Shown in pieces: positions 1-15,433 of a stretch of DNA of 16,236 nucleotides. The translations under genes were made by a program, and so were the position numbers. This stretch comes from Nocardioidaceae bacterium (GTDB lineage Bacteria; Actinomycetota; Actinomycetes; Propionibacteriales; Nocardioidaceae). The stretch is from positions 2,103-18,338 of the forward strand of contig JAGQUE010000175.1 in the NCBI GenBank assembly GCA_020438665.1. Direction: 5' to 3'. The notes below the pieces were generated by a model, which did no database searches, was not told where the DNA came from, and saw only the letters and a list, made by a program, of their open reading frames with translations. How positions within the stretch are numbered: the first letter of the stretch is position 1; each line of letters begins with the position of its first letter.

Positions 1-3000
1 GCTCGGGACGCTCCTCCGGAACGGCGGGCGACCACGACGTGCAGGCCGGTGTCGCGGGCCTGGGCCATCAGGGGCTGGAGCGGCTGGACCGGCGAGCTCT
101 GCTGGGTCGCGACAAGGTCGTAGTCATCGACGACCACGAACACCTCGGCCCCGGTCCACCACGAGCGGCTGCGCAGCTGGTCGGGGGTCACGTCCGGGCC
201 GGGGATGCGGTTCTCGAGGTAGGCCGCGAGGTCGCGCAGCGCCGGCTGGGCCTGGGCTGCGGAGGTGAGGTAGTGAAGCAGGTAGTCCTCGGGCACCTCG
301 CCGAGGTGCGCCCGCCGGTAGTCCACGACGACGATCTGGGCCTCCTGCGGGGTGCGGGTGCGCATCACCTCGTGCAGGTAGGAGCGCAGCACGCCGCTCT
401 TGCCCGACCGGCCGTCACCGAAGATCAGCAGGTGGGGCTCCAGGTCCGGGTTCAGCCCGACGGGAGCCAGCTCCTTCTCGTTGACCCCGAGGAGCAGGTG
501 GCCGGTCGCAAGCCCGCGAGCCGCGGCCTGATCACGAACGGCGGCCAGCTCCACGCGGTCGGGCAGGAGCCGCAGCTTGGGACCGGTCGGGCCCGTCCAC
601 GCGGCGGCCACCCGGCGGACCAGGTCGTCGACCCCGACGCCGACTGAGGCCGGATCGGGGCGGCCGTCGATGCGCGGCAGTGCCGCCAGGTGGTGGAGCT
701 TGCCGGGGACCAGTCCGCGGCCGGGTCGTCCGGTCGGCACGAGCGCCGCGACCTTGCGGTCTATCTCGGAGTCCATCGGGTCACCGAGCCGCAGCTCCAG
801 GCGGGTGCCGAACACATCGCGCATCGCCGAGCGGAAGTCTGCCCATCGGGTCGCCCCGACGAGCAGGTGCAGCCCGAAGGTCAGCCCGCGCGACGAGAGC
901 TGCTGGAGCTCCATCTCGATGTCGTCGAAGTCCGCTCGCAGCGTCGCCCAGCCATCCACCACCACGAAGACGTCGCCGAAGCCGTCGTCGGCCTGGCCGG
1001 CGGCCCGGCGGCTGCGGTAGGTCTCGATGCTGTCGATCCCCTGTGCCCGGAAGTAGGCCTCGCGCCGGTCGACGATGCCGTGGACCTCGGCGAGGATCCG
1101 GCGTACGACGTCGGGCTCGGCGCGGGTGCCGACGCCGGCCACGTGAGGCAGCGCGGCCATCGGCGCGAAGACGCCGCCGCCGAAGTCGAGGACATAGAAC
1201 TGCGACTCCAGCGGGGTGGTGGTCAGGGCGAGGCTCGACACCAGCGTCCGCAGCAGCGTGCTCTTGCCGCTCCGTGGACCACCGACGACGGCGACGTGGC
1301 CGGCCGACCCGCTGAGCGCGGCGGTGAAGGTGTCGCGCCGCTGCTCGCGGGGGCGATCGGCCGTCCCGAGCGGCACCACGAGCGCACCGGCGCTCCGCCA
1401 CGACGGGGACACCAGGCCGAGGCGGGGGTCCTCGACGAGGTCGGGCATGAGGCCGTCCAAGGTGTCGGGAACGTCGAGGGGTGGCAGCCACACCTGGTGG
1501 GCCTCGGGGCCACGACCGACCATCAAGGTGACCGCGATGGCGAGCAGCGAGTCCTGGTCCGCCTCGGTGGGGGCGGGGTCGATCAGCTCCTCGGCCGGCT
1601 CCACCGGTGTCAGCACCCGCACCTCGGAGATCGTGAACGGCACGATGCCCTGGGGGGTGCCGCCGGCGCGACGAGAGGGGCTGCGGGTCGGCGGGGGACC
1701 CGACACGTAGGACGCCTTGAACCGCAACAGGCTCGACTGGTCGGGCTTGAGATAGCCCAGTCCGGGCACGGGCGGCAGCTCATAGGCGTCGGGGACACCG
1801 AGCACTGATCGCGACTCCGCGGCGCTGAAGGTGCGTAGCCCGACCCGATAGGACAGGTGGCTCTCCAGCCCGCGGAGCCGACCCTCCTCGAGCCGCTGCG
1901 AGGCGAGCAGGAGGTGGAGTCCGAGGGAGCGCCCGAGCCGACCGATGGCGACGAACAGGTCGATGAACTCAGGCTTGGCCGACAGCATCTCTGAGAACTC
2001 GTCGACGACGATCAGCAACGAGGGCAGCGGATCGAGGGCCTCGCCGGCCGCGCGGGCGCGCTCGTAGTCGCGCACCGACGCGAAGTTGCCCGCCTGACGG
2101 AGCAGCTCCTGGCGCCGCACCATCTCACCGGAGAGGGCGTCCTGCATGCGGTCGACGAGGGTGAGCTCCTGGGCGAGGTTGGTGATCACCGCGGACACGT
2201 GTGGGAGGTCGGACATGCCCGCGAACGTGGCGCCGCCCTTGAAGTCCACCAGGACCAGGTTGAGCTGTTCGGGGGAGTGGGTCATCGCCAGGCCGAGCAC
2301 GAGCGTGCGCAGGAACTCCGACTTGCCGGAGCCGGTCGCCCCGATGACCAGGCCGTGCGGGCCCATGCCCTGTTGGGCGGACTCCTTGAGGTCCAGGTGG
2401 ATCGTGGCGCCCCCCTCGCCCACTCCGATGGGCACCCGGAGCCGGTCGCGGGCCGGCCGCGGCCGCCAGGCGGCAGTCGGGTCGAACGCGCGGACGTCAC
2501 CGAGGCCGAGCAGGTCCATGAAGTCGCTGGTGGCGGTGATCTCACCGGGGGCGCCGGCGTCGGCGCGGTCGATGGCCACGGTGTGCAGCGGTGCGAGGCG
2601 GCGGGCGAACGCCTCGGCGGTGGTGAGGTCGCACTGGTCGGCGAGCGCCCGGATCGGTTCCTCGCGCAGGCGGAGGGCGAGCACCGGCGCCTTGCCGGCC
2701 TCCTCGGGCAGGTCCTCGAGCTGGAGTCGGAGCCGAGTGGGGTCGTCGAGCGCGTCCCAACGGCTGGGCAGGTCGACCACGGTCACGCCGTGGAGACCGT
2801 CGGGCGGGATGACGTGGTTGCCGGGCGGCAGCTCCTGGCCGTCGACCACCAGGAGGATGTGCGGCGAGGGGAGCCGGTCGTCGGCCCCGAACCGGGGCCG
2901 GTCGGCCAGGTCCGCGGGCAGCAGCCCCGACAGGTCGGTCAGGGAGGTGGTGACCATGCGCATCGGGCCGGCCGCGTCGGACTGTCGTCCACTCAGGGCG

Positions 3001-3797
3001 TGGGGCAGCCATTTCAGCCAGTCCCAGTGGGCCAGCTTGTCCTCACTGCAGAGCACACCGACCGCGAGATGGGTCGGGGCGTGGAAGGCGGTCGCCGAGC
3101 AGACGAGTGCCCTTGCGAGCGCGCGCGCCTGCTCCTCGGAGCCGCAGAGCTCGACCCGGTCGAAGGCGCGCAGGTCGATGCTCGCCGGCAGCCGGGGCTG
3201 GACCCGATGGACCACGAGCAGCCGGTGCAGCGCCGAGGCCGCGGCCGGGTCGACCTGGTCGATCGGGGCGCTCTCCGGGGGGACGAGCTCGACGGACAGC
3301 GGTTGGGCGCAGACGCCGTAGCGCACCTGCAGGAACCTGTCGTCGCCCGCGCCCAGCTCCCAGACCCGGGACCTTTCCTCGGCCAGCGCGGGCAGCGAGG
3401 TCGGCTCGGGGTGCTGCCAGGTGAGCGCCCGGCGCTGCTGGGCGGCGGCGTCGCGCGCCACCTCCCGGACGGTGCCGAGATAGCGGAGGTAGTCGGTGCG
3501 GGTGCCGGTCACCTGCTGGGTGCGCTGCTTCCGCTGCCGGTCGAGCTGGACGACGATGAAGCCCACGGTCGCGAACAGGAACATTCCGGCCGCGATATAG
3601 CCACGGGCGCCGGCGCCGGTCTGGCTCATGGTGGCCACCAGGACGATGGAGCCGAGGCTGCCCAGCATCGGGATCGCGTTCATGAGAACGCCGGATGCGC
3701 CCTCGTTGGGCTCGATCTCCGGAGGTGGCTGCAGCACCAGCTGACCGGTGGGCACCACGGGCTCGTCGTGGCGCGAGCCTCGCAGCGTCGTGGTCAA
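1..3797 (-). CDS. eccC: Type VII secretion FtsK/SpoIIIE-type ATPase EccC (fused EccCa-EccCb), C-terminus cut by window edge
   Basis: This is the motor ATPase of the ESX membrane complex, which recognises WXG100 substrates and drives export. The frame is open from the left edge for 1265 codons. Fused EccC proteins are usually about 1300-1400 residues, so only a short C-terminal piece is missing. Two membrane segments lie near residues 37-57 and 66-84 and are followed by a basic stretch. Three P-loop ATPase domains follow, with Walker A motifs GATGSGKS (486-493), GGPRSGKS (839-846) and GDGRSGKS (1127-1134). Walker B is intact in the first domain (VVDEF, D599/E600). It reads VVDGW (D948/G949) in the second and VVDDY (D1224/D1225) in the third, so the first domain is probably the main hydrolytic one. 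I chose the TTG start (protein begins MTTTLRGSRHDEP) because AGGGGGAA at 3801-3808 sits just upstream; an in-frame ATG at 3863 has no such site. It is divergent from the first eccD. Confidence 0.96.
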   Translation of the reverse strand, partial: MTTTLRGSRHDEPVVPTGQLVLQPPPEIEPNEGASGVLMNAIPMLGSLGSIVLVATMSQTGAGARGYIAAGMFLFATVGFIVVQLDRQRKQRTQQVTGTRTDYLRYLGTVREVARDAAAQQRRALTWQHPEPTSLPALAEERSRVWELGAGDDRFLQVRYGVCAQPLSVELVPPESAPIDQVDPAAASALHRLLVVHRVQPRLPASIDLRAFDRVELCGSEEQARALARALVCSATAFHAPTHLAVGVLCSEDKLAHWDWLKWLPHALSGRQSDAAGPMRMVTTSLTDLSGLLPADLADRPRFGADDRLPSPHILLVVDGQELPPGNHVIPPDGLHGVTVVDLPSRWDALDDPTRLRLQLEDLPEEAGKAPVLALRLREEPIRALADQCDLTTAEAFARRLAPLHTVAIDRADAGAPGEITATSDFMDLLGLGDVRAFDPTAAWRPRPARDRLRVPIGVGEGGATIHLDLKESAQQGMGPHGLVIGATGSGKSEFLRTLVLGLAMTHSPEQLNLVLVDFKGGATFAGMSDLPHVSAVITNLAQELTLVDRMQDALSGEMVRRQELLRQAGNFASVRDYERARAAGEALDPLPSLLIVVDEFSEMLSAKPEFIDLFVAIGRLGRSLGLHLLLASQRLEEGRLRGLESHLSYRVGLRTFSAAESRSVLGVPDAYELPPVPGLGYLKPDQSSLLRFKASYVSGPPPTRSPSRRAGGTPQGIVPFTISEVRVLTPVEPAEELIDPAPTEADQDSLLAIAVTLMVGRGPEAHQVWLPPLDVPDTLDGLMPDLVEDPRLGLVSPSWRSAGALVVPLGTADRPREQRRDTFTAALSGSAGHVAVVGGPRSGKSTLLRTLVSSLALTTTPLESQFYVLDFGGGVFAPMAALPHVAGVGTRAEPDVVRRILAEVHGIVDRREAYFRAQGIDSIETYRSRRAAGQADDGFGDVFVVVDGWATLRADFDDIEMELQQLSSRGLTFGLHLLVGATRWADFRSAMRDVFGTRLELRLGDPMDSEIDRKVAALVPTGRPGRGLVPGKLHHLAALPRIDGRPDPASVGVGVDDLVRRVAAAWTGPTGPKLRLLPDRVELAAVRDQAAARGLATGHLLLGVNEKELAPVGLNPDLEPHLLIFGDGRSGKSGVLRSYLHEVMRTRTPQEAQIVVVDYRRAHLGEVPEDYLLHYLTSAAQAQPALRDLAAYLENRIPGPDVTPDQLRSRSWWTGAEVFVVVDDYDLVATQQSSPVQPLQPLMAQARDTGLHVVVARRSGGASR

Positions 3798-3800
3798 GCG

Positions 3801-3808
3801 TTCCCCCT
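3801..3808 (-). promoter_or_regulatory. Ribosome binding site deciding the TTG start of eccC
   Basis: Read on the minus strand, AGGGGGAA lies three bases before the TTG at 3797, leaving five bases after the AGGGGG core. No comparable site precedes the in-frame ATG at 3863. This supports the rarer TTG start. Confidence 0.6.
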
Positions 3809-3848
3809 GGAGCCCGGCCCGTGCATCGTGGGCCCTGGTCGTCGCTTG

Positions 3849-3854
3849 ATGATA
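3849..3854 (-). promoter_or_regulatory. Possible -10 element of the eccC promoter
   Basis: TATCAT on the minus strand matches the actinobacterial TANNNT -10 pattern and would give a leader of about 45 bases before the TTG start. The hexamer 17 bases upstream (TAGTCG) is only a weak -35 match. The assignment is inferred from sequence alone. Confidence 0.35.
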
Positions 3855-3875
3855 GGCGGGCATGCGGGCAGCGAC

Positions 3876-3881
3876 TACCCT
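3876..3881 (+). promoter_or_regulatory. Possible -10 element of the first eccD promoter
   Basis: TACCCT fits the TANNNT -10 pattern and lies about 40 bases before the GTG start at 3920. No convincing -35 hexamer is visible at 17-18 bases. It overlaps the inverted repeat at 3880-3894. Confidence 0.3.
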
Positions 3882-3894
3882 GCCCACAGGGCAG
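3880..3894. promoter_or_regulatory. Inverted repeat CTGCCC-ACA-GGGCAG between the divergent eccC and eccD genes
   Basis: Two perfect 6-base arms flank a 3-base centre. The repeat lies where transcription of the rightward operon would start if TACCCT at 3876 is its -10, and about 26 bases upstream of the leftward TATCAT. An operator for a dimeric regulator or a small 5'-UTR hairpin are both possible. The sequence does not say which. Confidence 0.4.
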
Positions 3895-3906
3895 CCCACG
3901 AGCGAT

Positions 3907-3913
3907 GAGGGGG
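3907..3913 (+). promoter_or_regulatory. Ribosome binding site deciding the GTG start of the first eccD
   Basis: GAGGGGG lies six bases before the GTG at 3920. The in-frame ATG at 3905 overlaps this site and has no clear site of its own, so GTG is preferred. Confidence 0.5.
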
Positions 3914-3919
3914 TGCGAC

Positions 3920-5317
3920 GTGGACAGCGCCCCCAGGGTGAGCACGTCCGACGTTCAGTGCGTCTGCGTCCACGGCCCCGCCGGTGTGCTCGACCTGGCG
4001 GTCCCCTGGGACACGACCGCGCGGCAGGTCGCCGAGGAGTACGCGCGGCAGTCGTCGCTCGAGGCGATCCCCGTGCTGCTCACGGCGCTGGGGGGGCCGG
4101 TCCTGCCCGATCGGCCTCTCGTGGAGTCCGGGGTCCGGGCGGGTGACGTCGTGGTCGCCGTGGCGACCGTGCTGTCCGCCGGACCGTCGGCTCGGATGCC
4201 GGTCGAGCCGGCCGCGGCCCGCGCCCCGGCCGGTGCCGGCGCCACGGCCTGGGTTGCGGTGGCGGCCGCCCTGGCGGTGGCGAGCGGCTGGCTGGCGGCC
4301 CACCTCGACGCAGGTAGCCAGCTGAGATCGGCGACCGTCGGTGCGCTGGTCGTCGCCGCGGTGCTGGGCGTCCTGCCGGCGCCCGGGGCGGCTCGACAGC
4401 GCACGCTCGCCGCGCCGGCCTTCGCGGGAGCGGCCGCGTTCGTCGTTGCCTGGGAGCCCACGTCGGGGACGCTTCCGCTGGTCCTGGGCCTGGCCGGCCT
4501 CGCGGCGGCAGCGACCGCCGCCGCGGCGCGAGCGCTTGCCGCCGACCCCCACGAGGGGTTGGTGGTGTGGCTGGTCAGCGGTGGGTCGTTCTTCGTGCTG
4601 AGCGGCGGGTGCGCGCTGCTCGGGCTCGGGCCCGCGGTCGTCTGGTCGGTCGCCCTCGTCGCGGCGATGCTGGCCACGCGCCTGGTTCCGGCCCTCGCGG
4701 TCGACGTCCCGGACCAGCTCCTCGTCGACCTCGAGCGGCTGGCAGTCACGGCCTGGTCGGCGCGCGAGCGGCCCCGTGGGCGCAGGGGCCGCGCCGTCGT
4801 CCCGACGGGGATGGTGGCCGACGTGGCTGACCGGGGGGGACGCATCGTGACCGCCGGGGCCGTGGCCATCGCGGTGGTCACGGTCGCCGCCGCGCGGGGT
4901 CTGCTGGTGACGGCCGACGTGCCGGTCGACCGGGTCGGCGCCCGGCTGCTCGTGGTGCTCGTGGGTGCCGTGCTGCTGCTGGCCGCGCGCCACCACCGGC
5001 ACCGGTTGGCCCGGGCCTGCCTGCGGGTGGGCGGGGTGCTGGCCTGGCTTGCGGTGACGGCCGGGATCGTCGACCGGTTGGACGAACGGCAGGCGTGGTG
5101 GCTGGTGGCGGCAGCCACCGTCGTCGCCGTCGTGCTGGTCGTGGCCTCGGTCGCCACGGGTCGCGGCTGGCGGTCGGCGTGGTGGTCTCGTCGCGCCGAG
5201 CTGGTCGAGGTCGTGGCCGGGTCGGTGGCCGTGGCGTCGGTGGTCGTGTCGAGCGGGTTGTTCCGCCACCTGTGGGAAATCGCGTCGACGATGTTTAGCA
5301 CCCGGTCGCCGGGGTAG
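3920..5317 (+). CDS. EccD-like Type VII secretion membrane protein, first paralogue
   Basis: A 465-residue integral membrane protein of the EccD type. EccD forms the large membrane barrel of the ESX pore, and its N-terminal ubiquitin-like domain contacts EccC in the cytoplasm. Residues about 11-85 look like the ubiquitin-like fold: alternating beta segments, a helix, and a late DRPLVESGVRAGD turn. From residue about 109 onward I count eleven hydrophobic segments with a basic cytoplasmic loop in the middle, the topology and length expected of EccD. The GTG start is chosen for its ribosome binding site; a longer in-frame ORF begins at 3695 but would run antisense into eccC. It is clearly diverged from the second eccD at 7955 and less like canonical EccD, so I give no symbol. 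It may supply one subunit of an EccD heterodimer or stand in for the missing EccE; both are inference. Confidence 0.85.
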   Translation: MDSAPRVSTSDVQCVCVHGPAGVLDLAVPWDTTARQVAEEYARQSSLEAIPVLLTALGGPVLPDRPLVESGVRAGDVVVAVATVLSAGPSARMPVEPAAARAPAGAGATAWVAVAAALAVASGWLAAHLDAGSQLRSATVGALVVAAVLGVLPAPGAARQRTLAAPAFAGAAAFVVAWEPTSGTLPLVLGLAGLAAAATAAAARALAADPHEGLVVWLVSGGSFFVLSGGCALLGLGPAVVWSVALVAAMLATRLVPALAVDVPDQLLVDLERLAVTAWSARERPRGRRGRAVVPTGMVADVADRGGRIVTAGAVAIAVVTVAAARGLLVTADVPVDRVGARLLVVLVGAVLLLAARHHRHRLARACLRVGGVLAWLAVTAGIVDRLDERQAWWLVAAATVVAVVLVVASVATGRGWRSAWWSRRAELVEVVAGSVAVASVVVSSGLFRHLWEIASTMFSTRSPG

Positions 5318-5362
5318 ATGACCACGCGTCGGACCTGCCCCTCGCCGGGCGACCCGCACCAC

Positions 5363-5368
5363 TAGCGT
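5363..5368 (+). promoter_or_regulatory. Possible -10 element ahead of the WXG100 genes
   Basis: TAGCGT lies in the 107-base gap between the first eccD and the first WXG100 gene and fits TANNNT. It would give the highly expressed small proteins their own promoter with a leader of about 50 bases. No good -35 hexamer is evident. Confidence 0.35.
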
Positions 5369-5424
5369 CACCGACCATCGATCTTCTCGCGGGGATGACC
5401 CACCGGGGGACAAGGAGAGGCGAT

Positions 5425-5745
5425 ATGTCCAGCACCGCCAACGAGATGGGACAGGGCCACGGCACCCTGTCCGCGGCCGCCGCCAAGGTGGCGTCCGCCA
5501 AGACCGACTTCGATCGGATCAGCTCCGACCTGACCGGCAAGATCCAGGGCCTGAGTGGCCAGTGGGTCGGCGCCGGCGGCACGGCGTTCATGAAGCTGCA
5601 CCGGGAGTGGACCGAGGCACACCGACGGATCACGGCCGCCCTCAACGAGTTCGAGGCGTCGCTGCACAGCACCGAGCGCGACAACACCTCGACCGACGAG
5701 AACCAGACCGGCCCGATGACCAACCTGTCGGCCCGTCTCGGCTGA
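5425..5745 (+). CDS. WXG100 family protein (EsxA/EsxB-like), first of a tandem pair
   Basis: A 106-residue, mostly helical protein of the ESAT-6/CFP-10 family, which are exported as helical-hairpin dimers by Type VII systems. The signature W47-V48-G49 sits at the turn between two amphipathic helices (about 8-43 and 54-86). The C-terminal tail of about 20 polar residues is longer than in the second protein. It has no tyrosine at all, so it lacks the YxxxD/E export motif and is expected to leave the cell by pairing with its neighbour. The ATG at 5425 follows AGGAGAGG four bases upstream. An in-frame ATG at 5395 would add ten residues but has no ribosome site. The next gene begins 27 bases downstream, so co-translation in equal amounts is likely. 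Confidence 0.93.
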   Translation: MSSTANEMGQGHGTLSAAAAKVASAKTDFDRISSDLTGKIQGLSGQWVGAGGTAFMKLHREWTEAHRRITAALNEFEASLHSTERDNTSTDENQTGPMTNLSARLG

Positions 5746-5772
5746 CCTCGACCTCTCGACAGGAGCACTGAC

Positions 5773-6066
5773 ATGTCTTTCGACCTTCGTGTGAACCACG
5801 CCCAGCTCGACGCCGCGGTGCAGGACATCGCGGCCACCGTCAAGGCCATCGACGGCCGGCTCGACCAGCTCGAGGCCGAGCTGGCGCCGCTCAAGAGCGA
5901 CTGGGTCGGCAGCGCCCAACAGGCCTACGCCCTGGCCAAGTCCAAGTGGGACGGCGCCATCGCCGACCTCAACCAGGTCCTCGCCGAGGCCGGGGTGGCG
6001 GTCTCCCAGGCCAACACCGAATATGCCGCGGCCGACCGCCGCGGCGCCAGCAACTTCCAGTTCTGA
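5773..6066 (+). CDS. WXG100 family protein with YxxxD export motif, second of a tandem pair
   Basis: A 97-residue WXG100 protein, the classic family length. W44-V45-G46 marks the hairpin turn between helices of about residues 7-40 and 48-86. Just after the second helix is Y84-A-A-A-D88, matching the YxxxD/E secretion motif that Type VII substrate pairs usually carry on one partner only. The tail ends in aromatic SNFQF, which could be the part read by EccC; that is inferred from how CFP-10 works in mycobacteria. The ATG at 5773 has AGGAG seven bases upstream. Together with the preceding gene it makes the likely secreted heterodimer of the locus. Confidence 0.95.
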   Translation: MSFDLRVNHAQLDAAVQDIAATVKAIDGRLDQLEAELAPLKSDWVGSAQQAYALAKSKWDGAIADLNQVLAEAGVAVSQANTEYAAADRRGASNFQF

Positions 6067-6110
6067 CAGGCACCGACGGCCCTCGAGCCGCCAGGGCTGA
6101 GGGGGACACG

Positions 6111-6584
6111 ATGGCCATTCCCGTGATGAGCACCGGTGCGGTGCTGGGTGCGCTCGGTGGGGTGCTCCAGCTCGACCCTGCCGTCCTCGAGCAGCTCGAA
6201 AAGATCCTCACCGAGAACTCCGACCTGCTCGAGGCTGCGCCCTACCAGCGGTTGCAGGTCTCCGACCGGGCCTTCGGCGGCTCGGCCAAGGCCGGCACGC
6301 TCGGCTGGCACCACGCGCGTGCCCACGAGGTGCTCGCCCAGACCGTCCTGGCGATGGTGACCGACCTGCGGGAGTTCGCCGTTGGTGTCCGGACCGCGGC
6401 CGAGGGGGTCGATGCGGCCGACGATGACGCCGCCGCGGACCTCGTCCGGCGCGCCGACCGGCTCCACAGCCATGACCAGCAGGCCTATGACCACGCCCGC
6501 AACCACCAGTCGGCGCAGCCTCCCCCCGAGATCGCCGGCGCCCCCGGCGCTGCCGACGAGACGGCCTCGGGAGGGCAGGCCTGA
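6111..6584 (+). CDS. EspC/WXG-like helical protein associated with Type VII secretion
   Basis: A 157-residue protein of unproven function. Residues about 45-120 read like the EspC (DUF2580) or WXG100 superfamily: a RLQVSDRAFGGS start, then a long Ala-rich helix (HARAHEVLAQTVLAMVTDLREFAVGVRTAAEGVDAADDDAA pattern). The FGGS followed by a helical partner resembles the turn of these hairpins. A flexible Pro/Ala/Gly tail follows from about residue 137. The tyrosines do not fit YxxxD/E. The start at 6111 is preceded by GAGGGGG with five bases of spacing. Its TGA overlaps the ATG of the next gene by one base (TGATG), which means translational coupling and suggests that the two products pair or act together. 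The EspC relation is recalled from family patterns, not computed. Confidence 0.75.
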   Translation: MAIPVMSTGAVLGALGGVLQLDPAVLEQLEKILTENSDLLEAAPYQRLQVSDRAFGGSAKAGTLGWHHARAHEVLAQTVLAMVTDLREFAVGVRTAAEGVDAADDDAAADLVRRADRLHSHDQQAYDHARNHQSAQPPPEIAGAPGAADETASGGQA

Positions 6585-7867
6585 TGGGACCCCGCGAGCG
6601 TGCGCTGCGTGACGCCGTCGGCGGCGGTAGCGCCGACGTCGTCACCGCTGCCGCCGAGGAGTGGCGCAGTGGCGCCCAGTTGCTCGCCAACGTCGCGATG
6701 GCGCTGGACCTGGCCGCCGAGAAGGCTCCCGAGACTTTCGGGCCCGCCTCCCAGACCGCCGCCGACGCGGCCGCGGCGTTCGGTCGGGTCAAGACCCTCG
6801 TGATGGAGCGCAGCGACCAGATGACCTCCGGCTCGCAGGCCCTGCTCGACGCGGTGGCCGCCTATCGTGAGGCGCAGACCACCCTCACGTCCCTCGGCGC
6901 CGAGCCCACGGCCCCCGTCTATCACGACCCCGGCCCGGCGGCCGACGACGCCGACGTGATCCGTGCCTCGGTCACCTACAACAACCGCGTCAGCGCCTAT
7001 CACGCCGACCTGGCCGCTCGTGAGTCGCAGTCGGCGGCCGCGCTCACGGCCATGGACACCAGCTATGACGGGTCGATCGCGACCTTGCAGTCCATTCACG
7101 GCGAGCCCGACCCGGCGACCGGGTCACCGGCTGGTGGCACCTCCTCGGCGAGCGGCACCCGAGCGGGCTCGGGCGGGGCTGGCGCCGCGACCTCCAGCGG
7201 CACGGGCACCGGCGCCGGCAGCGGCACTGGCAGCACCGGCGGCACCGGCGCGGATGGCACCGGCACGGGCACAGGTGGCACCGGGACGGGCTCGGGAAGC
7301 GGCTCCGGAGGACCGGGTGGTTCCGGTGGCTCCGGTGGCGGCGCACCCCAGGGCGGCACTCCCGGCGGCGATGGTGGGGCGCCCGGCTCGGGTGGCGGCC
7401 CGATCGGTGGTCCCCCCGGCGGCGGGTTCCCGGGCGGCGGATCCGGCGGATCGGGCGGATCGGGCGGTGGCACCGTCGGCGGTGTGGCCGGCACGGTCGG
7501 CGGCGGCGTGATCGGCGGGCTCGCCGGGCTCGGTGGCGCCGTGCGCGGCCCCCTCCCGATGGTGCCGGTGACCGGCGCCGCGTCGGGCAGCCTCGGGTCC
7601 ACGACCCGGCCGGCGAGTGCGGGCACCCTCGGCCGACCGACGACGGCCCCGGGCACCGTGGTGGGGGGCGGCAAGGGCGCCAGCGGCGGCCGCTCCTCGA
7701 CGGGTGGTGGCCGGGGAGCACGCGGGGTGACGGGCGCTATGGCCGGCGGCGGTGCGGGGGGCCGCGGCGACCGGCGGCGACGCGACGCGGCGACCGCCGT
7801 CGACCACCTCGACGGGCCCCAGGACTGGCTCGACGACGACGACCCGGCTCCCGGCCTCCTCGACTGA
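6584..7867 (+). CDS. Large PPE/WXG-like protein with Gly-rich C-terminal region, putative Type VII substrate
   Basis: A 427-residue protein I cannot name. Residues 1-172 are helical and Ala-rich, with a W27-R-S-G motif near the N-terminus and a second helical pair around 125-170, reminiscent of PPE or WXG-like secreted proteins. Residues about 179-400 are extremely rich in Gly with Ser, Thr and Pro, including GGS repeats, so probably disordered or fibrous. The end is basic (GGRGDRRRR, 392-400) then acidic (VDHLDGPQDWLDDDDPAPGLLD region, 406-427). I see no YxxxD/E. It is coupled to the preceding EspC-like gene by a one-base overlap and sits inside the secretion cluster, so a secreted or surface-displayed role is a fair inference. 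A structural part of the system is the alternative. Confidence 0.8.
   Translation: MGPRERALRDAVGGGSADVVTAAAEEWRSGAQLLANVAMALDLAAEKAPETFGPASQTAADAAAAFGRVKTLVMERSDQMTSGSQALLDAVAAYREAQTTLTSLGAEPTAPVYHDPGPAADDADVIRASVTYNNRVSAYHADLAARESQSAAALTAMDTSYDGSIATLQSIHGEPDPATGSPAGGTSSASGTRAGSGGAGAATSSGTGTGAGSGTGSTGGTGADGTGTGTGGTGTGSGSGSGGPGGSGGSGGGAPQGGTPGGDGGAPGSGGGPIGGPPGGGFPGGGSGGSGGSGGGTVGGVAGTVGGGVIGGLAGLGGAVRGPLPMVPVTGAASGSLGSTTRPASAGTLGRPTTAPGTVVGGGKGASGGRSSTGGGRGARGVTGAMAGGGAGGRGDRRRRDAATAVDHLDGPQDWLDDDDPAPGLLD
7120..7780. repeat. Gly-rich low-complexity coding region
   Basis: GGC/GGT/GGA-rich DNA encodes the Gly/Ser/Thr tail of the preceding gene. It includes four 9-base units at 7436-7471 (three GGCGGATCS copies and one GGCGGTGGC) that encode GGS GGS GGS GGG. 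Such stretches are prone to slippage and length variation. Confidence 0.85.
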
Positions 7868-7900
7868 GTCCGGATCCAGCCCGGACCGAGGCACGCCCGC

Positions 7901-7906
7901 TACCAT
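7901..7906 (+). promoter_or_regulatory. Possible -10 element ahead of the second eccD
   Basis: TACCAT fits TANNNT and lies in the 87-base gap before the second eccD, giving a leader of about 40 bases. No clear -35 is present. It may allow eccD-eccB-mycP to be transcribed apart from the substrate genes. Confidence 0.3.
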
Positions 7907-7954
7907 GCTTGCGGCCCGCAGGAGATGGGCTGACGACTGTCGGGGGGAGACGTC

Positions 7955-9325
7955 ATGACGCAGGGTGGCACCGGCGTCCCGAGCCTCGTGCGGATCACCG
8001 TCGCCTCGGCCACCCGACGGGTCGATCTGGTCCTGCCGGGCGCCGTCCCGGTGGCCGAGCTGCTCCCCGAGCTCGCCCGGGGGGTGGGCCTGCTCGACGC
8101 CGCCACCGTCTATGCGGGCTACCACCTGACCACCCAGGACGGCCGCGAGCTGGTGGGTGACGCGGGCCTGATCATGCAGGGGGTGGAGGACGGGGCCCTG
8201 CTCACCGTGACCTCGGGTGTCGACGACGCTCCGCCGCGCATCTATGACGACGTCGTCGAGGCGATGACCGACGTGGTCGAGCGCGAGCTCCGGCCGTGGC
8301 AGCCCGCCTCCGGCCGCCGCACCGCTCTGACCGCAGCCGCCCTGCTGCTCGCCCTCGGCGCGGCGGCGCTGCTGCTGCAGGGCGGCGTCCTCGCCGGGGT
8401 GACGTCGGCCCTGGTGGCGCTGTCGCTCGTGGTCGGCGCCATCGTCTTGTCCCGGGCCCAGCACGAGCGCGACGCCGCCGTGGCGGTCGCCTGGATGGGC
8501 GCCGGTTATGCCGCGGTCGCCGGCCTCCTCCTCGGCGCCGGTGACGGCCGGCCGGGGAGCGTCGACCAGTGGTTCGGGCTGCCTGCCGCCGTGGCGGGCG
8601 CCGGCATGCTCGCCGCAGGACTGCTGGCGCTGGTCGGGCTCGGAGACGGCCGGACGCTGGCGATCCCGCCGGTCGTCGTCGGTGCGGTCCTCGCCTCGGC
8701 CGGGTTGGTGATGCGGGCCGCGGCGTTCGATCCGGCCGTCGTGCTCACCACCACGCTCGTGCTTGTCGTGATCGCCGGCAGCGTCTTCCCCTGGCTCGCC
8801 CTGGGGATGGCCGGCACGGCGGTCCCCCAGCTCTACTCCACCGCCGACGTGACCGCCGACCCGACCGAGGTCGACCCCGTCCGTGTGGCCCTCGACGCCC
8901 GGCTGGCCCACGACATCCTGGTGGCGGTGTCCGCGACGGTCGGTCTGCTGCTGGTCCTCGTGGCCCCGCTGGCCGTCTCGCTCGGTCTCCCCGGCACCCT
9001 GCTGGCTGCCGTCGCGTGTCTGGTCGTCATGCTCCGGACGCGGCAGTACCGCACCGGCGCCGAGGTACTGGTCGGGCTCGTCTCGGGTATCGCCGGCCTC
9101 GTCGTCATCGCGGTGGCCCTGGTGTGGCTCCACCCCGACTGGCGACCGACCACGGCGGTCGTGCTCGCGTTCGCCGGGGCAGCGCTCCTCGCGCTCACCC
9201 TGGTGCCCAGCACCCCGTCGGTCCGCCGCGGCCGGGCCGGCGACATCGCCGAGTCCGTCGCACTCCTGGCCCTGCTGCCGCTGCTCGTCGTCGCGACCGG
9301 CATCTTCACCGCGCTCCGGGGCTGA
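7955..9325 (+). CDS. eccD: Type VII secretion integral membrane protein EccD
   Basis: A 456-residue EccD. The N-terminal domain (about 10-88) is the ubiquitin-like fold typical of EccD, with the family pattern VRITVASATRRVDLVLPG followed by PVAELLPEL. A linker (DDVVEAMTDVVEREL, 98-112) leads to eleven hydrophobic segments from about residue 123 to the C-terminus, with the usual loop between segments 6 and 7 (LYSTADVTADPTEVD). This is closer to the canonical family than the paralogue at 3920. The ATG follows a GGGGGGAGA ribosome site. Its TGA is two bases from the eccB ATG, so eccD and eccB are surely one operon. In ESX complexes two EccD copies surround each EccB/EccC unit. Here the two copies could come from different genes. 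Confidence 0.95.
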   Translation: MTQGGTGVPSLVRITVASATRRVDLVLPGAVPVAELLPELARGVGLLDAATVYAGYHLTTQDGRELVGDAGLIMQGVEDGALLTVTSGVDDAPPRIYDDVVEAMTDVVERELRPWQPASGRRTALTAAALLLALGAAALLLQGGVLAGVTSALVALSLVVGAIVLSRAQHERDAAVAVAWMGAGYAAVAGLLLGAGDGRPGSVDQWFGLPAAVAGAGMLAAGLLALVGLGDGRTLAIPPVVVGAVLASAGLVMRAAAFDPAVVLTTTLVLVVIAGSVFPWLALGMAGTAVPQLYSTADVTADPTEVDPVRVALDARLAHDILVAVSATVGLLLVLVAPLAVSLGLPGTLLAAVACLVVMLRTRQYRTGAEVLVGLVSGIAGLVVIAVALVWLHPDWRPTTAVVLAFAGAALLALTLVPSTPSVRRGRAGDIAESVALLALLPLLVVATGIFTALRG

Positions 9326-9327
9326 GC

Positions 9328-10731
9328 ATGGCCACCAAGCGCGACCTCGTCGAGGCCCACGCCTTCAGCCGGCGCCGGCTCGTCACCGCGTTCGTCTCAG
9401 GCGCACCGGGCGGCCGCGAGGTCGAACCGGTCCGTCCCGGCCGCACCATCGTGGGCGGGATCGCCCTGGCGGTCCTGCTCCTCCTGGGTGCCGTCGTCGC
9501 CGGCGTGTTCGCCCCGCGCACCCCCCAGGACTGGAACAAGGTCGGCCTGGTCGTCTCCAAGGACGACGGCGGCCTCTATGTCATCACCGAGAGCTCCGAC
9601 CACCCGGTGCTCCGGCCCGTCATCAACGTGACCTCGGCCAAGCTGATCCTCGGTGACCTCGCCGCCGACCCGACGCCGCTGTCGACGTCCTTCATCCAGA
9701 GCCAGCGGATCGGTGAGGACGTCGGCATCCTCGGGGCTCCCCACGACGTCCCCGCCCCCGAGCGGCTCATCGGGTCGGGGTGGACGGCCTGCACCGACTC
9801 GGGGCTCGGCATCCGCGTCGACATCGGGCCCCGCCCCGACGTCACCGCCGCGCCGGGGCGTGGGCTGGTCGTGCAGAGCGAAGGCGACTACTTCGTCGTC
9901 GCCGAGGCGCTCTCCGACGACCGCGTGCACCCGACGGCCTACCGCTATCGGTTGCCCACCCAGAGCGGTCCCCGCGACAACATGCTCGCCGCGCTCGGCC
10001 TCCCCGCCGGGGTCGAGGCCGTCGAGGTACCACCGGCCTGGCTGGCGCTGTTCCCGGCCGGTGGCGACCTGACCTGGGAGAGCATGGGGATCGAGCACGC
10101 TGGTCAGCCCGCGTCGATCGACGCGGCGGGCAGCGACGACCGCTATCGGGTCGGCGATGTCGTGATCTCCGCCGACGACGCCGTGGTGCTCACGGAGGTG
10201 GGGCCGGCACCGATGACGACGTTCGCGCTGGCGGTCTATGAGAACCTGCCCGAGCCCTACACCCCGCGGGTCTTCAGGGACGACCAGGTCGACCTGGGGC
10301 GCGTCGACCGCCCCTACGCCGACGCCCACTGGCCCGTCGACCTGCCGACCGCGGCGGTGGGTGAGGCATGCGTCCAGCTCGCCGCGGCCACCGATGCGCC
10401 GCCCCGCGTCACGCTGGCGGAGCTTCCTGGAGGGCGGGCCAGCGCCGACGGAGTGTCCGCCGGGACCAGCGCGGTCGGGATGGATCCCGGCTCCGGGGCC
10501 CTCGTGGTCGCGGGCGACTGGAGCCAGACCGAGGGCGGCTCCCCCTTCCTGGTCGACGCCAAGGGCCGGGCCTATCCGCTGCTGGTGCCGGCCGCCCTGC
10601 GGCTCGGCTATGGCGGCGTCGACCCCACCCGTGTCCCCGACGGCTGGCTCGAGCTCTTCGCCGACGGGGTGACGTTGTCGCCACAGGCGGCGCTGTGCCC
10701 GCCCGAGGCCGCGGACAAGCCATGCGGCTGA
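9328..10731 (+). CDS. eccB: Type VII secretion protein EccB
   Basis: A 467-residue bitopic protein of the ESX core. The N-terminus (MATKRDLVEAHAFSRRRLV) is the short cytoplasmic part with the expected Arg-rich helix. One membrane segment lies at about 41-62, and the rest is the extracytoplasmic repeat domain. Cys155 and Cys348 stand at about the positions of the disulfide reported for mycobacterial EccB1, and two more cysteines (457, 466) lie at the very C-terminus. In the family EccB scaffolds the periplasmic or cell-wall side of the pore and touches MycP. It starts two bases after the eccD stop and ends overlapping the mycP start by ten bases, so all three are translated together. A longer in-frame ORF upstream (from 8569) runs through eccD in another frame and is not real. 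Confidence 0.96.
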   Translation: MATKRDLVEAHAFSRRRLVTAFVSGAPGGREVEPVRPGRTIVGGIALAVLLLLGAVVAGVFAPRTPQDWNKVGLVVSKDDGGLYVITESSDHPVLRPVINVTSAKLILGDLAADPTPLSTSFIQSQRIGEDVGILGAPHDVPAPERLIGSGWTACTDSGLGIRVDIGPRPDVTAAPGRGLVVQSEGDYFVVAEALSDDRVHPTAYRYRLPTQSGPRDNMLAALGLPAGVEAVEVPPAWLALFPAGGDLTWESMGIEHAGQPASIDAAGSDDRYRVGDVVISADDAVVLTEVGPAPMTTFALAVYENLPEPYTPRVFRDDQVDLGRVDRPYADAHWPVDLPTAAVGEACVQLAAATDAPPRVTLAELPGGRASADGVSAGTSAVGMDPGSGALVVAGDWSQTEGGSPFLVDAKGRAYPLLVPAALRLGYGGVDPTRVPDGWLELFADGVTLSPQAALCPPEAADKPCG

Positions 10732-12011
10732 CCCGGGTCTCCTGGGCCGGCGCCGGTCTCGTCGTGGCGCTCGTCGCCGGGCCGCTGCCGCAGCCCTCGG
10801 TCGCCACCACGGTGTCGGCAGCCGATGTCCCGTGCCAGACCATCAGCGCCGACCTGCCGACCCAGGAGGCGGCGTCGGCCAGCCGGCCGATCCAGCTCCT
10901 CGGCGTCGAGCGCGCCCAGGCGCTGCTCGACCGGACCGCCCCGGCGGGGCCTCGCGTGCGGGTCGCGGTCGTCGACTCCGGGGTGATCGACACCCCCCGG
11001 ATCCCCGTCGTACGCCGGGTCGGGTTCACCCGGCTCGCCGAGGTGCAGCACTTCCACGGCACCGCCGTCGCCGGGCTGATCGCCGGGCAGCCGCTGGCCG
11101 ACGGTGCTGCCGTGGGGGTCGCGCCCGACGCGGAGATCGTCGACGTCCGGGTCTTCGACGACGACGCCCCCACCGACACCGACAGCGCCGATGTCCAACC
11201 GGCACGGGTCGCCCTGGGCCTGCGCTGGGTCGCTCGGCACGCCGACCGGCTCGACATCGGCGTGGTCAACGTGTCCCTGATGGTGGCCGACGACCCTCGG
11301 CTGGCCGCGGCCGTCCGAGCGCTCCGGCGGGCCGACGTCGTGGTGGTCGCCTCGACCGGCAACCGACCCACTGAGCCGGGCCAGCCCCTCTATCCCGACT
11401 TCGCCACGCTCGCCCCCGGCGAAGACGCCGCCGCCCGGGTCTTCCCTGCGGGCTATCCCGGCGTCGTCGGAGTCAATGCGACCTCGGGCGCCGCCGACGC
11501 CGACGATCTGGGATCGGTCCTCCAGAGCTCGGCCACCGACGTGGCCGCACCCACGCCCGGTGGAGTCACGGTCGCCCTCAACGGCGGCACCTGTGTGCTG
11601 CCCGACGTCGCCACCTCATGGTCGGCAGCCGAGGTCAGCGGCGTCGTGGCAATGCTGCGGGCCCGGTTCCCCGACGAGAACGCTCGGCAGATCGCCGCCC
11701 GTCTGACCGCGACCGCGAGTGCCGCGCCCGGATCGGCGAGCCCACTCGTGGGGGCGGGAGTCGTGCAGCCGGTGGAGGCGCTCACCCGACCCCTCCACCC
11801 GACTCGTGCGGGCACGGTCGCCGAGTCCCTGCCGGCACCCGACCTGCTCCCCGAGGCCTCGCAGCCCGTCGTCGCCAGCGACGACGGCGCCGCGCTGCGC
11901 CACGCCGCGCTCTGGTGGGGCCTCGTGGCCGGCGGCCTCGTCGTGCTGGCCCTGCTGGTGAGGCCCCTGCTGGCCCGGCGGCGAGACCTCGGCCGGCCGG
12001 CGGCCCGCTGA
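10722..12011 (+). CDS. mycP: Mycosin, membrane-anchored subtilisin-like protease of the Type VII system
   Basis: A 429-residue S8-family protease. A signal segment (about 8-30) is followed by the subtilisin domain and a C-terminal membrane anchor (about 393-416) ending in basic residues. The catalytic triad is visible: D85 (VAVVDSGV), H112 (FHGTAVAG) and S299 (ATSWSAAEVSG), with oxyanion-hole N214 (ASTGN). Mycosins are needed for ESX complex stability and, in some systems, process substrates. The serine block is atypical: Ala replaces the Gly of GTS, and Glu stands where the family normally has Pro. Cys38 in the N-terminal extension and Cys291 near the active serine could form a disulfide. 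The start overlaps the eccB end by ten bases. The gene ends the secretion operon, convergent with the next gene. Confidence 0.95.
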   Translation: MRLTRVSWAGAGLVVALVAGPLPQPSVATTVSAADVPCQTISADLPTQEAASASRPIQLLGVERAQALLDRTAPAGPRVRVAVVDSGVIDTPRIPVVRRVGFTRLAEVQHFHGTAVAGLIAGQPLADGAAVGVAPDAEIVDVRVFDDDAPTDTDSADVQPARVALGLRWVARHADRLDIGVVNVSLMVADDPRLAAAVRALRRADVVVVASTGNRPTEPGQPLYPDFATLAPGEDAAARVFPAGYPGVVGVNATSGAADADDLGSVLQSSATDVAAPTPGGVTVALNGGTCVLPDVATSWSAAEVSGVVAMLRARFPDENARQIAARLTATASAAPGSASPLVGAGVVQPVEALTRPLHPTRAGTVAESLPAPDLLPEASQPVVASDDGAALRHAALWWGLVAGGLVVLALLVRPLLARRRDLGRPAAR

Positions 12012-12020
12012 CCCGTCAGC
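12007..12020. terminator. Palindrome GCTGAC-CC-GTCAGC spanning both convergent stop codons
   Basis: A perfect 6-base inverted repeat contains the mycP TGA (12009-12011) in one arm and the opposite-strand stop (12016-12018) in the other. There are only four bases between the two genes. The two-base loop is too tight for the whole stem and there is no T-run, so a terminator role is weakly supported. Confidence 0.25.
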
Positions 12021-12660
12021 CAGCGACGTGGAAGCGGCGCCGGTGGAACTGCGGCTGCTCGATCTCGTCGAGCACGGCCAGCGCCAGGTCGGGCGCGGCG
12101 ATATAGGACTCGCCCGCCTCGTCGGTGAGCAGGATGTCTGTGCTCAGCCGGTAGCAGCCGGTGACGCGCTGGGGGAGCCAGGCCCCGAAGTTGGCGGCCG
12201 GGCTGACATAGAACCAGTCCAGCGACTCCGGAGACTTCCGCAACGCCTCGAGCAGGGCCATTCCAGTCATCACCTCGGACCGGATCTCGGCCGGCGGCTC
12301 GTGGACGTCGAAGAAGCGCGGTCCGCCCTCGGCCACGAGCATCGAGGACACCCCGCCCAGGACGCCGAGCCGGACGTCCGCTCGGTCGGCCAGGGTGATG
12401 AGCCGGTCGAGGATGCCCTCGAGCTTGCCCTCCATGTCACCGCGCGGCGAGAGGGTCTCGAAGACGACGTCGGCGTCCTCGACGACCCGGGCCAGCAGGG
12501 CCTCGTCCTCGAGGGACCCGTGGACATAGGTCACCCCGTCGACGGGCTCCGCCGGCGCGGTGCGACTGTAGGAGGTGACCGTGTGACCCCGTTGCGCGGC
12601 CTCGCGGACGACGGCCGAGCCGCCGTAGCCGGTGCCACCGAGAACCTTGATGCGTGTCAT
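12016..12660 (-). CDS. NAD(P)-binding SDR-type oxidoreductase/epimerase
   Basis: A 214-residue atypical short-chain dehydrogenase of the NmrA/YwnB kind. The N-terminal Rossmann strand and loop IKVLGGTGYGGSAVV carries the GxxGxxG dinucleotide-binding motif (8-14), followed by a strand ending in SYSRT (likely cofactor ribose side) and HGSLEDEALL, typical of these proteins. A strand GVLGGVSSML precedes a DVHEPP loop, and SLDWFYVSPAANF resembles the conserved WTIVRP-type segment. The substrate cannot be told. Such proteins are flavin or sugar-nucleotide reductases, or redox sensors. The ATG has no purine-rich ribosome site; only pyrimidines precede it, so leaderless translation or a weak site is possible. 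It is convergent with mycP and divergent from the Cys-rich gene, and nothing ties it to secretion. Confidence 0.85.
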   Translation of the reverse strand: MTRIKVLGGTGYGGSAVVREAAQRGHTVTSYSRTAPAEPVDGVTYVHGSLEDEALLARVVEDADVVFETLSPRGDMEGKLEGILDRLITLADRADVRLGVLGGVSSMLVAEGGPRFFDVHEPPAEIRSEVMTGMALLEALRKSPESLDWFYVSPAANFGAWLPQRVTGCYRLSTDILLTDEAGESYIAAPDLALAVLDEIEQPQFHRRRFHVAG

Positions 12661-12774
12661 GAGGGGGGAAGTCGGGACGCGCTCACTTTGTTCCCGGCGC
12701 CTGCAAACGAGATGCCGATCACGCTGGTGGGCGTCCCCCGAACACGCCGGTGCCGATGGGAGGACGATGGACCC
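12661..12774. promoter_or_regulatory. Divergent promoter region between the oxidoreductase and Cys-rich genes
   Basis: These 114 bases must hold both promoters. I see GGGAACAAAG on the minus strand, which recalls a stress-sigma -35, but no convincing paired -10. No inverted repeat stands out. Confidence 0.4.
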
Positions 12775-13380
12775 ATGCCTGCCACATCCACCGCGCCGAC
12801 GCCGACCACGACCTCCACCTCGACCCCGATCCGTGCCGAGCACGGCTGCCGGTCCTTGTCGGAGTGTGACCTCGGGGTGGCCCAGCGGTTGGCGCTGATG
12901 GCCCTGCGTCATGGTGGCTTCGTGCGTGACCTCCCCGCCGGTTCGTTCGTCGGAGACACCACCGAGGAACGTGCCTATGGCGACTACCTGCTCGTGCTGC
13001 TCCGGCGCTATGGCGGCGCCGACTTCGACGAGGAGAAGGTGCTCACCGTCTTCGCAGACCATCCGCTGCTGCTCGCCCCCGCCGATCCCGAGCACGTCAC
13101 CCACGACTGCCCCGTCTGTGGGAGCCCCGCTCTGTTCACCACCGCTCGCGGCACCGTCTGTGACGATTGTGCCGAGCGGGTGCGCTGCTCGTCGGGCCAC
13201 CTGGTGGCCGGCACGAGCGCCGACGCCTGGGGCCACTTCGCGGCCTACCACGTCGACGGTCACGGCGAGGAGTGCCACTCGGTCACCGACAGCGGCGTCT
13301 GCTGGATCGACGACTGCGAGTGCGTGATGGAGGAGACGCGCACCGGCGGTGTCGTCGTCGAGGTCCTCGCGGCCCCCTGA
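12775..13380 (+). CDS. Cys-rich, probably zinc-binding protein of unknown function
   Basis: A 201-residue protein I do not recognise. After a Thr/Pro-rich, likely disordered N-terminus (1-20) comes a helical part (about 33-100). The C-terminal half has Cys pairs C112-x2-C115 and C129-x2-C132, then C138, C167, C176, C181 and C183. There are eleven cysteines in all plus several histidines (H141, H154, H159, H163, H168). This suggests one zinc ribbon and perhaps a second metal site or an iron-sulfur site. No signal peptide is seen, so it is probably cytoplasmic. The ATG follows GGGAGGA with ten bases of spacing, slightly long. An in-frame ATG at 12712 without a ribosome site would add 21 residues. 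GC content and codon use look like the neighbours. Confidence 0.75.
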   Translation: MPATSTAPTPTTTSTSTPIRAEHGCRSLSECDLGVAQRLALMALRHGGFVRDLPAGSFVGDTTEERAYGDYLLVLLRRYGGADFDEEKVLTVFADHPLLLAPADPEHVTHDCPVCGSPALFTTARGTVCDDCAERVRCSSGHLVAGTSADAWGHFAAYHVDGHGEECHSVTDSGVCWIDDCECVMEETRTGGVVVEVLAAP

Positions 13381-13421
13381 GCCCCGCCGAGCCCTACCCC
13401 ATCGCCGAGTCGTCACATCGT

Positions 13422-13450
13422 GTGAGGGCTCGATAGGACCGTGCCCTCAC
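13422..13450. terminator. Hairpin between convergent genes, possible bidirectional terminator
   Basis: GTGAGGGC (13422-13429) and GCCCTCAC (13443-13450) are perfect 8-base arms with a 13-base loop, lying between the ends of two convergent genes. No T-run follows on either strand, as is common for high-GC actinobacterial terminators. A smaller TCACA-TCG-TGTGA repeat at 13413-13425 overlaps the left arm. Confidence 0.5.
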
Positions 13451-13469
13451 CACGACGCCGGTGCGGGTG

Positions 13470-15209: not shown

Positions 15210-15433
15210 GCCGCCAGTGTGGCGCAGGTGATGGTCGCCGGACCGAGGATCCGCGCGCCTTGTCCCTCGCGTCGCGTCGGTCGAAGACCGCCGGTCGTGA
15301 CCGATGGGCGCCCCTGGGTGCAGAGCGAGGTGATGTACGTCCTCGCGCCGCCGACGGATGAGGCGCATGCTGGCAGGGAGAACGCGGGTGGCCGGCCACC
15401 GCGAGCGTGGCGGGTCACCGGAGAGGACCCATC
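15210..15433. promoter_or_regulatory. Divergent promoter region with GGTC/GACC inverted repeats
   Basis: This 224-base spacer serves the GH44 and aldolase genes. It holds three short inverted repeats sharing arms: GGTC-GCCG-GACC (15233-15244), CGGTC-GAA-GACCG (15278-15290) and CGGTC-GT-GACCG (15292-15303), the last two in tandem. A fourth, looser pair, GGGTC and GACCC (15412-15416, 15426-15430), encloses the aldolase ribosome site. I could not assign clear -10 or -35 boxes. Confidence 0.45.

Follow-up and report, generated by a model that had tools for sequence, protein, structure and literature searches.

How is a type VII secretion system built when its locus carries two diverged EccD genes and no EccE? 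The question is posed by a 16,236-nucleotide stretch of Nocardioidaceae DNA (contig JAGQUE010000175.1, positions 2,103 to 18,338), hereafter the window, in which positions 3–12011 make up a locus for type VII secretion: a minus-strand eccC, then, divergently, an EccD-like gene that we name EccDL (3920–5317), two WXG100 genes, two substrate-like genes, a canonical eccD, eccB and mycP. An earlier sequence-only reading had listed the same genes, all of which are recovered with the Pfam and NCBIfam results given below, and had proposed that the two EccD proteins form an asymmetric pair or that one of them replaces EccE. The first proposal is favoured here, at a probability of roughly 0.55: the locus would encode an EccE-less machine of the T7SSa (ESX) class whose EccD dimer would be an obligate heterodimer, with EccD in an outer, bent place and EccDL in an inner, extended place. 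The pair is well supported as an inference by a single EccB and a single over-cut-off EccC in 42/44 genomes, by strict co-occurrence, and by the opposite loss and retention of place-defining parts (linker and loop) in the two proteins; their physical pairing and the assignment of places are predictions from sequence.

Proposed places of the two EccD proteins

The available portions of the ESX-3 and ESX-5 papers describe the two places in structural terms. The ESX-3 protomer contains two EccD3 copies of different shape: one is bent, its linker, which joins the ubiquitin-like domain to transmembrane helix 1 (TM1), forming a helix that touches the EccC stalk and EccB; the other is extended, with a linker that touches EccE, and EccE hinders this second copy from bending (PMC6986878). 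Deep mutational scanning marked EccD3 linker residues E110–A115, and the extended copy's TM6–TM7 loop forms a pocket for I112 and A115 of the bent one (PMC11370616). The pore-proximal EccD of ESX-5 runs its TM6–TM7 loop along the EccC stalk, places TM11 on EccB and receives the N-terminus of the neighbouring EccB in a TM8/10/11 pocket, and the distal EccD lays its linker along the stalk (PMC8232910, PMC8131196). Because of the EccB and EccE contacts, the extended place is equated here with the inner one and the bent place with the outer one, a reading of these papers that is our own.

Transferred to the window, EccD would occupy the outer place, its linker helix gripping the EccC stalk and EccB. 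EccDL would occupy the inner place, where its TM6–TM7 loop and TM8/10/11 surface would meet the EccC stalk, the linker of its partner and the EccB N-terminus. The fixed asymmetry of such a pair may render EccE dispensable.

EccDL as a diverged EccD homologue

The elements of the two proteins on which this proposal depends are the following; helices and loops of EccDL are numbered by analogy with EccD.

3920–5317, plus strand: EccDL, diverged second EccD, divergent from eccC, with a ubiquitin-like domain and a multi-TM EccD domain (PF19053, 3e-10)
3953–4165, plus strand: approximate ubiquitin-like domain of EccDL, residues 12–82 (profile match to redesigned ubiquitin 2mlb, E 0.0011)
4166–4243, plus strand: EccDL linker, limits set by eye, lacking the EccD linker motif and any conserved column
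4688–4855, plus strand: EccDL TM6–TM7 loop, DVPDxxLxDLERLAVTAWSAR...GRRGR
5150–5215, plus strand: EccDL TM10–TM11 loop, VATGRGWRSAWWSRRAE
7955–9325, plus strand: canonical eccD (PF19053, 2.5e-42; PF08817 (YukD), 8.8e-18; TIGR03920, 112 bits; over cut-off)
8246–8263, plus strand: EccD linker motif DDVVEA, residues 98–103

Judged by its profile matches, EccDL is genuinely homologous to EccD, though strongly diverged. The window protein shows no BLASTP similarity to the neighbouring EccD, the NCBIfam EccD models are silent, and comparison with solved EccD structures by sequence or profile gave no match. Its PF19053 match nevertheless lies over the cut-off, and profile–profile alignment with EccD (hhalign) covers 423 columns and nearly the full EccDL length at a probability of 98.9. 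Additionally, the averaged hydropathy points to an EccD-like body with several TM helices, and a YukD Pfam match is present in several EccDL members, with none in the window protein. A search with EccDL returned 881 proteins at E≤0.001. The GTG start is backed by the starts of homologues, and codon-position GC supports the frame (0.80/0.58/0.92, against 0.90/0.59/0.79 for the antisense open reading frame).

The missing BLASTP similarity and the silent NCBIfam model are what one would expect of an unrelated transporter or a decaying duplicate; given the PF19053 match, the hhalign result, the 881 relatives and the strict retention of EccDL in family genomes, such an explanation is scarcely credible. 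The sequence-only reading had called the gene at 3920 EccD-like and had named an unrelated transporter family as the danger to that call; the Pfam and hhalign matches bear out the call and rule the transporter out. A mobile-element origin was likewise rejected, as tblastn at E≤1e-5 against 72,556 plasmid and 50,697 phage records came back empty. Among the 120 matches listed, EccDL-type proteins, where named, are mostly annotated as 'hypothetical protein', and Pfam EccD at E≤0.001 detects EccDL in just 21/28 genomes known to carry it; through both, EccDL is overlooked by annotation.

Linker loss and loop retention

The two proteins differ most clearly in the linker. The pattern [DE][DE][VIL]xx[AGV], sought in the linker region of fragments that reach 400 residues and a score of 60, duplicates being removed, occurs in 88/88 distinct partner EccDs and in 48/60 EccDs of other systems, against 1/90 EccDLs, and the sole EccDL match (L204) appears within the ubiquitin-like domain, outside the linker. 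A smaller count gave 75/75 and 7/7 for EccDs (shuffled expectation 12.6 and 0.9) and 0/81 and 0/7 for EccDLs (3.5 and 0.4), and a looser second pattern matched 1/81 EccDLs. In the window EccD, the motif corresponds to EccD3 E110–A115 in pattern and order, and D98, D99, V100 and A103 are invariant in 12 EccDs.

Column conservation was compared over 80 EccDL and 75 EccD rows from Nocardioides-type loci, with regions set by eye. Linker conservation is 0.39 in EccDL and 0.85 in EccD, and 0% of the EccDL linker columns are at least 90% identical. The loops, in contrast, are kept: loop 6–7 scores 0.74 in EccDL (43% of columns at least 90% identical) against 0.78 in EccD and is largely retained in distant EccDL members, loop 8–9 scores 0.85 against 0.89, and loop 10–11 scores 0.88 (64% of columns) against 0.81. 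The corresponding values are 0.64 and 0.87 for the ubiquitin-like domain and 0.62 and 0.76 for the whole protein. With its linker lost and its loops kept, EccDL thus appears to lack the outer-place parts and to possess the inner-place parts, whereas EccD keeps both.

Phylogeny of the EccD pair

An unrooted tree of 84 EccD-type rows (82 different) places 23 EccDL rows in one clade (100/100), 23 partner EccDs in another (100/99) and 38 EccDs of other systems in a third (95/98), which rules out a recent local duplication as the source of EccDL. The branching order is nearly the same in the EccDL and partner EccD clades, with G040 and G106 placed differently, and EccDL branches are about twice as long. 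Moreover, EccC proteins of 20 EccDL-bearing loci form one clade in a tree of 34 rows (SH-aLRT 100). With a root placed among the other systems, one old duplication would likely have given rise to both EccD and EccDL; the origin is likely rather than proven because the tree is unrooted and the EccDL branches are long.

Conservation and distribution of the locus

A scan of genome contigs yielded 112 relatives, of which 80 loci were kept, each with as much as 10 kb of flanking DNA, or less where a contig ended. Gene families in the left and right flanks were set aside, as most matches there came from several frames hitting one and the same stretch of DNA. All 80 contain EccDL and at least two WXG100 matches, and eccC is present in 79, eccD in 77, eccB in 75 and mycP in 73. 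Missing genes fall at contig ends: L048 lacks eccC, and L048 and six others lack mycP. Two EccD-type genes are thus found in the window and in 77/80 loci, the remaining three being cut by contig ends. The order and strands eccC(−)/EccDL–esx–esx–eccD–eccB–mycP are the same in 73/73 complete loci, including L073, whose eccD shows in two frames.

Among 149 family genomes, EccDL occurs in 44, EccB occurs in the same 44, and neither occurs in the other 105; one of the 44 (G507) shows only a short piece of EccDL. Since these genomes are related, they do not represent 44 independent events. The window EccDL itself comes from a single 18.3 kb contig, and its named relatives are mostly Nocardioides and Nocardioidaceae. 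The EccD–EccDL pair reaches Aeromicrobium (G054), Motilibacter deserti (G106) and the Microbacterium-like G213, identified by protein matches (85% identity to an M. oxydans protein); for Cellulomonas, Serinibacter and Actinomyces, the observation is limited to proteins of EccDL type.

EccDL adjoins eccC in every locus where both were seen. Among the loci read, those of Nocardioides, Aeromicrobium and Motilibacter have the two genes in divergent orientation; G213 and G393 have eccC immediately after EccDL on the same strand, their frames abutting. Both genes of G393 (L220/L221) extend over several reading frames, and its EccDL is outside the 90 counted for the motif. Elsewhere in the class, the divergent place beside eccC is taken by canonical eccD in 29/30 class-sample loci with the best EccD matches (L097–L126); in the thirtieth, L115, the order check gave no eccC over threshold, though phmmer found one. 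eccC and eccD are also divergent in L193 and L197, which we take to be ESX-4 loci from their gene order.

The constant position beside eccC would also suit an accessory EccC-binding membrane protein, an assembly factor or regulator, that stays outside the barrel while the core EccD forms a homodimer, presumably as in ESX-4. The longer EccDL branches, the loops as the most conserved parts of the protein, and the existence of EccE-less genomes with one detected EccD agree with such a role. EccDL is, however, as regular as EccB (44/44 genomes), almost all of its length can be aligned with EccD, and its conserved loops are the counterparts of surfaces at work within the EccD complex; we regard the accessory role as unlikely.

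Two further layouts were observed. Non-Nocardioides two-EccD loci (L177–L182, L205, L221, L222, L224) have an additional, diverged mycosin gene next to the esx genes, on top of the usual mycP after eccB, two of these second mycosins having been checked by Pfam, whereas the 73 complete loci have one mycosin each. In G197, two EccD genes (L184 and L190) lie about 63 kb apart, with eccC beside only one in the stretches read; this is perhaps another split EccD pair.

Number of motors per genome

Motors were counted in 44 genomes chosen for carrying the pair or EccDL. In 42/44, a single EccB accompanies a single EccC over the model cut-off, from which both EccDs probably serve one motor. The exceptions are G001, with the whole locus twice, and G008, with an extra single-EccD system. 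In G001 (Nocardioides sp. 503), the locus copies L002 and L008 have equal scores on two contigs, reflecting duplication or an assembly effect. In G008 (Nocardioides hwasunensis), the second type VII system (L093) has a single EccD that groups with the EccDs of other class genomes and not with the Nocardioides pair. One EccC and no further long EccC-like relative is found in 30/44 genomes; shorter FtsK-type matches near 100 bits were taken as other ATPases.

These counts bear on a different arrangement, in which EccD homodimers and EccDL homodimers form separate machines that share EccC and EccB and perhaps handle different substrates or conditions. The grouping of EccDL with eccC and of eccD with eccB and mycP, together with the second mycosin of non-Nocardioides loci, looks as if there were two sub-modules; EccD retains both linker and loop 6–7; and 13/44 genomes hold a further, distant EccC-like protein. 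Yet an EccDL homodimer would be without a linker helix for the bent place, EccDL and EccB are never apart in the family sample, and 42/44 genomes have a single EccB, which leaves separate machines at long odds, if the least doubtful of the rivals considered here.

Absence of EccE

EccE was found neither in the window, as the sequence-only reading had noted, nor in any of the 80 relative loci within the flanks given above; an eccE just beyond the edge, the finding that could have undone that reading, has no counterpart beside the relatives. In 28 Nocardioides-type genomes, PF11203 (EccE) gave weak matches in 20, with 5 over cut-off. All five proved to be other proteins, three of the SCO6880 family and two DUF58, so that, on the matches over cut-off, EccE elsewhere in these genomes was rejected as an explanation; a sixth match given a locus, L086, is below cut-off. 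The profile itself works: other genomes in the class match it strongly, the best at 3.4e-32. SCO6880-family and DUF58 proteins (L094–L096, L082, L085) match Pfam EccE weakly and could be mistaken for it in actinobacterial genomes. As for EccA, Pfam on five flank genes of L003 gave no AAA match; no search aimed at EccA was made.

Could EccDL instead hold the place and do the work of EccE? The absence of EccE from these loci fits, as does the ESX-3 observation, in the available portion of PMC6986878, that EccE holds the extended EccD linker, the very part lost in EccDL. The EccE profile, however, matches none of the EccDLs shown, which rules out EccDL as an EccE homologue and leaves this second proposal of the sequence-only reading unsupported by homology; moreover, EccDL aligns with EccD, and there are EccE-less genomes with one detected EccD. 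Replacement of EccE by EccDL is accordingly rated as very improbable.

Weighing the heterodimer

Several observations count against an obligate EccD–EccDL pair. First, 12/60 EccDs outside the subtype miss the strict linker motif (most are near variants by eye, about four have none), so the motif is not indispensable everywhere. Second, linker loss in EccDL could partly reflect general relaxation, given its long branches, though its loops stay conserved. Third, EccD keeps its own loop 6–7 and is more conserved overall, which means that EccD may also pair with itself. Fourth, the additional long EccC-like proteins of 13/44 paired genomes (14 places, 309–358 bits, below cut-off) may represent a second motor in those genomes. 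Finally, G056, G155, G216, G297 and G317 have one Pfam-detected EccD and no EccE match (E≤0.001); Pfam may miss an EccDL-like gene, but taken as they stand such genomes imply that EccE and EccDL are both dispensable in general, that the lack of EccE is ordinary, and that a replacement of EccE by asymmetry stays hypothetical. The EccC-like ATPases themselves, for example at G106:C226:7943-9826 and G076:C1:606134-608044, possibly belong to another secretion or translocation system.

The heterodimer with EccD outer and EccDL inner is nonetheless the reading we prefer. A wider claim can be put forward only tentatively, and we would sooner doubt it than accept it: that these loci constitute a distinct T7SSa subtype with EccD asymmetry divided between two genes, EccDL being confined to the inner place and EccD to the outer, and with fixed asymmetry performing the job of EccE in ESX-3. 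If true, nature would have separated the tasks of the two EccD copies in these EccE-less two-EccD machines. In mycobacterial ESX systems, a single gene supplies both copies, and a mutation therefore always affects both places; here, the places could be probed one at a time by deleting or mutating either gene. The reason for the double use of EccD, and the purpose of EccE, would thereby become directly testable in soil bacteria.

Other components of the window

The remaining genes of the locus are as follows.

3–3863, minus strand: eccC, membrane ATPase (TIGR03924, 946 bits; TIGR03925, 774 bits; PDB 4nh0, 1094 bits)
5395–5745, plus strand: WXG100 protein 1 (PF06013, 7.3e-11; WVG motif; start possibly 5425)
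5773–6066, plus strand: WXG100 protein 2 (PF06013, 3.4e-16; WVG motif)
6111–6584, plus strand: small substrate-like or chaperone-like gene
6584–7867, plus strand: substrate-like gene with a Gly/Thr-rich second half
9328–10731, plus strand: eccB (PF05108, 7.4e-47; NCBIfam EccB below cut-off)
10722–12011, plus strand: mycP, mycosin, an S8 protease with a C-terminal hydrophobic stretch (PF00082, 1.1e-20; TIGR03921, 3.9e-48, below model cut-off)

Within the window, eccC contains three Walker A motifs (GATGSGKS, GGPRSGKS and GDGRSGKS); its C-terminal end lies beyond the left edge, and its start is uncertain, the reading frame being open to 3899. The profile of the canonical eccD matches EccD5 and EccD3 chains in the PDB, and window EccB gave no match among solved structures. 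The WXG100 proteins are predicted secretion substrates of this T7SSa, and YAAAD close to the C-terminus of the second fits the YxxxD motif. The genes at 6111–6584 and 6584–7867 gave zero matches in Pfam, NCBIfam and PHROGs; phmmer relatives occur in 9/127 sequences for the first and in 10/127 for the first 170 residues of the second, the window counted in both cases. Both are likely to be variable cargo or cargo helpers. To the right of mycP, 12016–15368 on the minus strand encodes an NmrA-like NAD(P)-binding protein and a GH44 glycoside hydrolase, not counted as parts of the locus.

Comparison with known type VII systems

The window contains the T7SSa features EccC ATPase, WXG100 pair, EccB, EccD and MycP; the Pfam EccB, S8 and both EccD models are over cut-off, and NCBIfam EccB and mycosin are below. 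On this predicted gene content, the locus is a T7SSa. It resembles mycobacterial ESX-3 and ESX-5 in EccB, EccC, an EccD with a ubiquitin-like domain, MycP and the WXG100 pair, and, as proposed from the genes alone, in two EccD places per protomer. It differs in having two eccD genes and no EccE, where ESX-3 and ESX-5 use one eccD twice together with EccE. EccDL itself has the TM domain and the ubiquitin-like domain of an EccD and lacks the linker helix motif.

In the available portion of PMC4791881, ESX-4 comprises EccB, EccC, EccD, MycP and two WXG proteins, with eccE as a later addition, and Kribbella flavida, another member of the Propionibacteriales, has two ESX-4 clusters; PMC11217815, as far as available, describes some ESX-4 variants without EccE. 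ESX-4 and ESX-4-like systems, of which some or most lack EccE according to these two sources, thus share EccB, EccC, EccD, MycP and the WXG100 pair with the window. The difference lies in the single EccD described there, against EccDL beside eccC and a second, canonical eccD with eccB and mycP here.

Another parallel in layout is the mycobacterial-type locus of G077 (L195 6561-16915), in which two EccD genes surround one eccC. There, however, EccE is present, and both EccDs match the linker motif and fall outside the EccDL clade; this may be a second, independent two-EccD layout. T7SSc–T7SSj share the core of an EccC-type ATPase and WXG100 proteins, and the available part of PMC11217815 describes no two-EccD variant among them. 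A literature search of open-licence papers, judged by title and the start of the abstract, found no report of a two-EccD system. By its predicted genes, with EccE in 0/80 loci and two EccDs, the locus is neither of the ESX-1/2/3/5 type nor a plain ESX-4, and is classified here as a new T7SSa variant.

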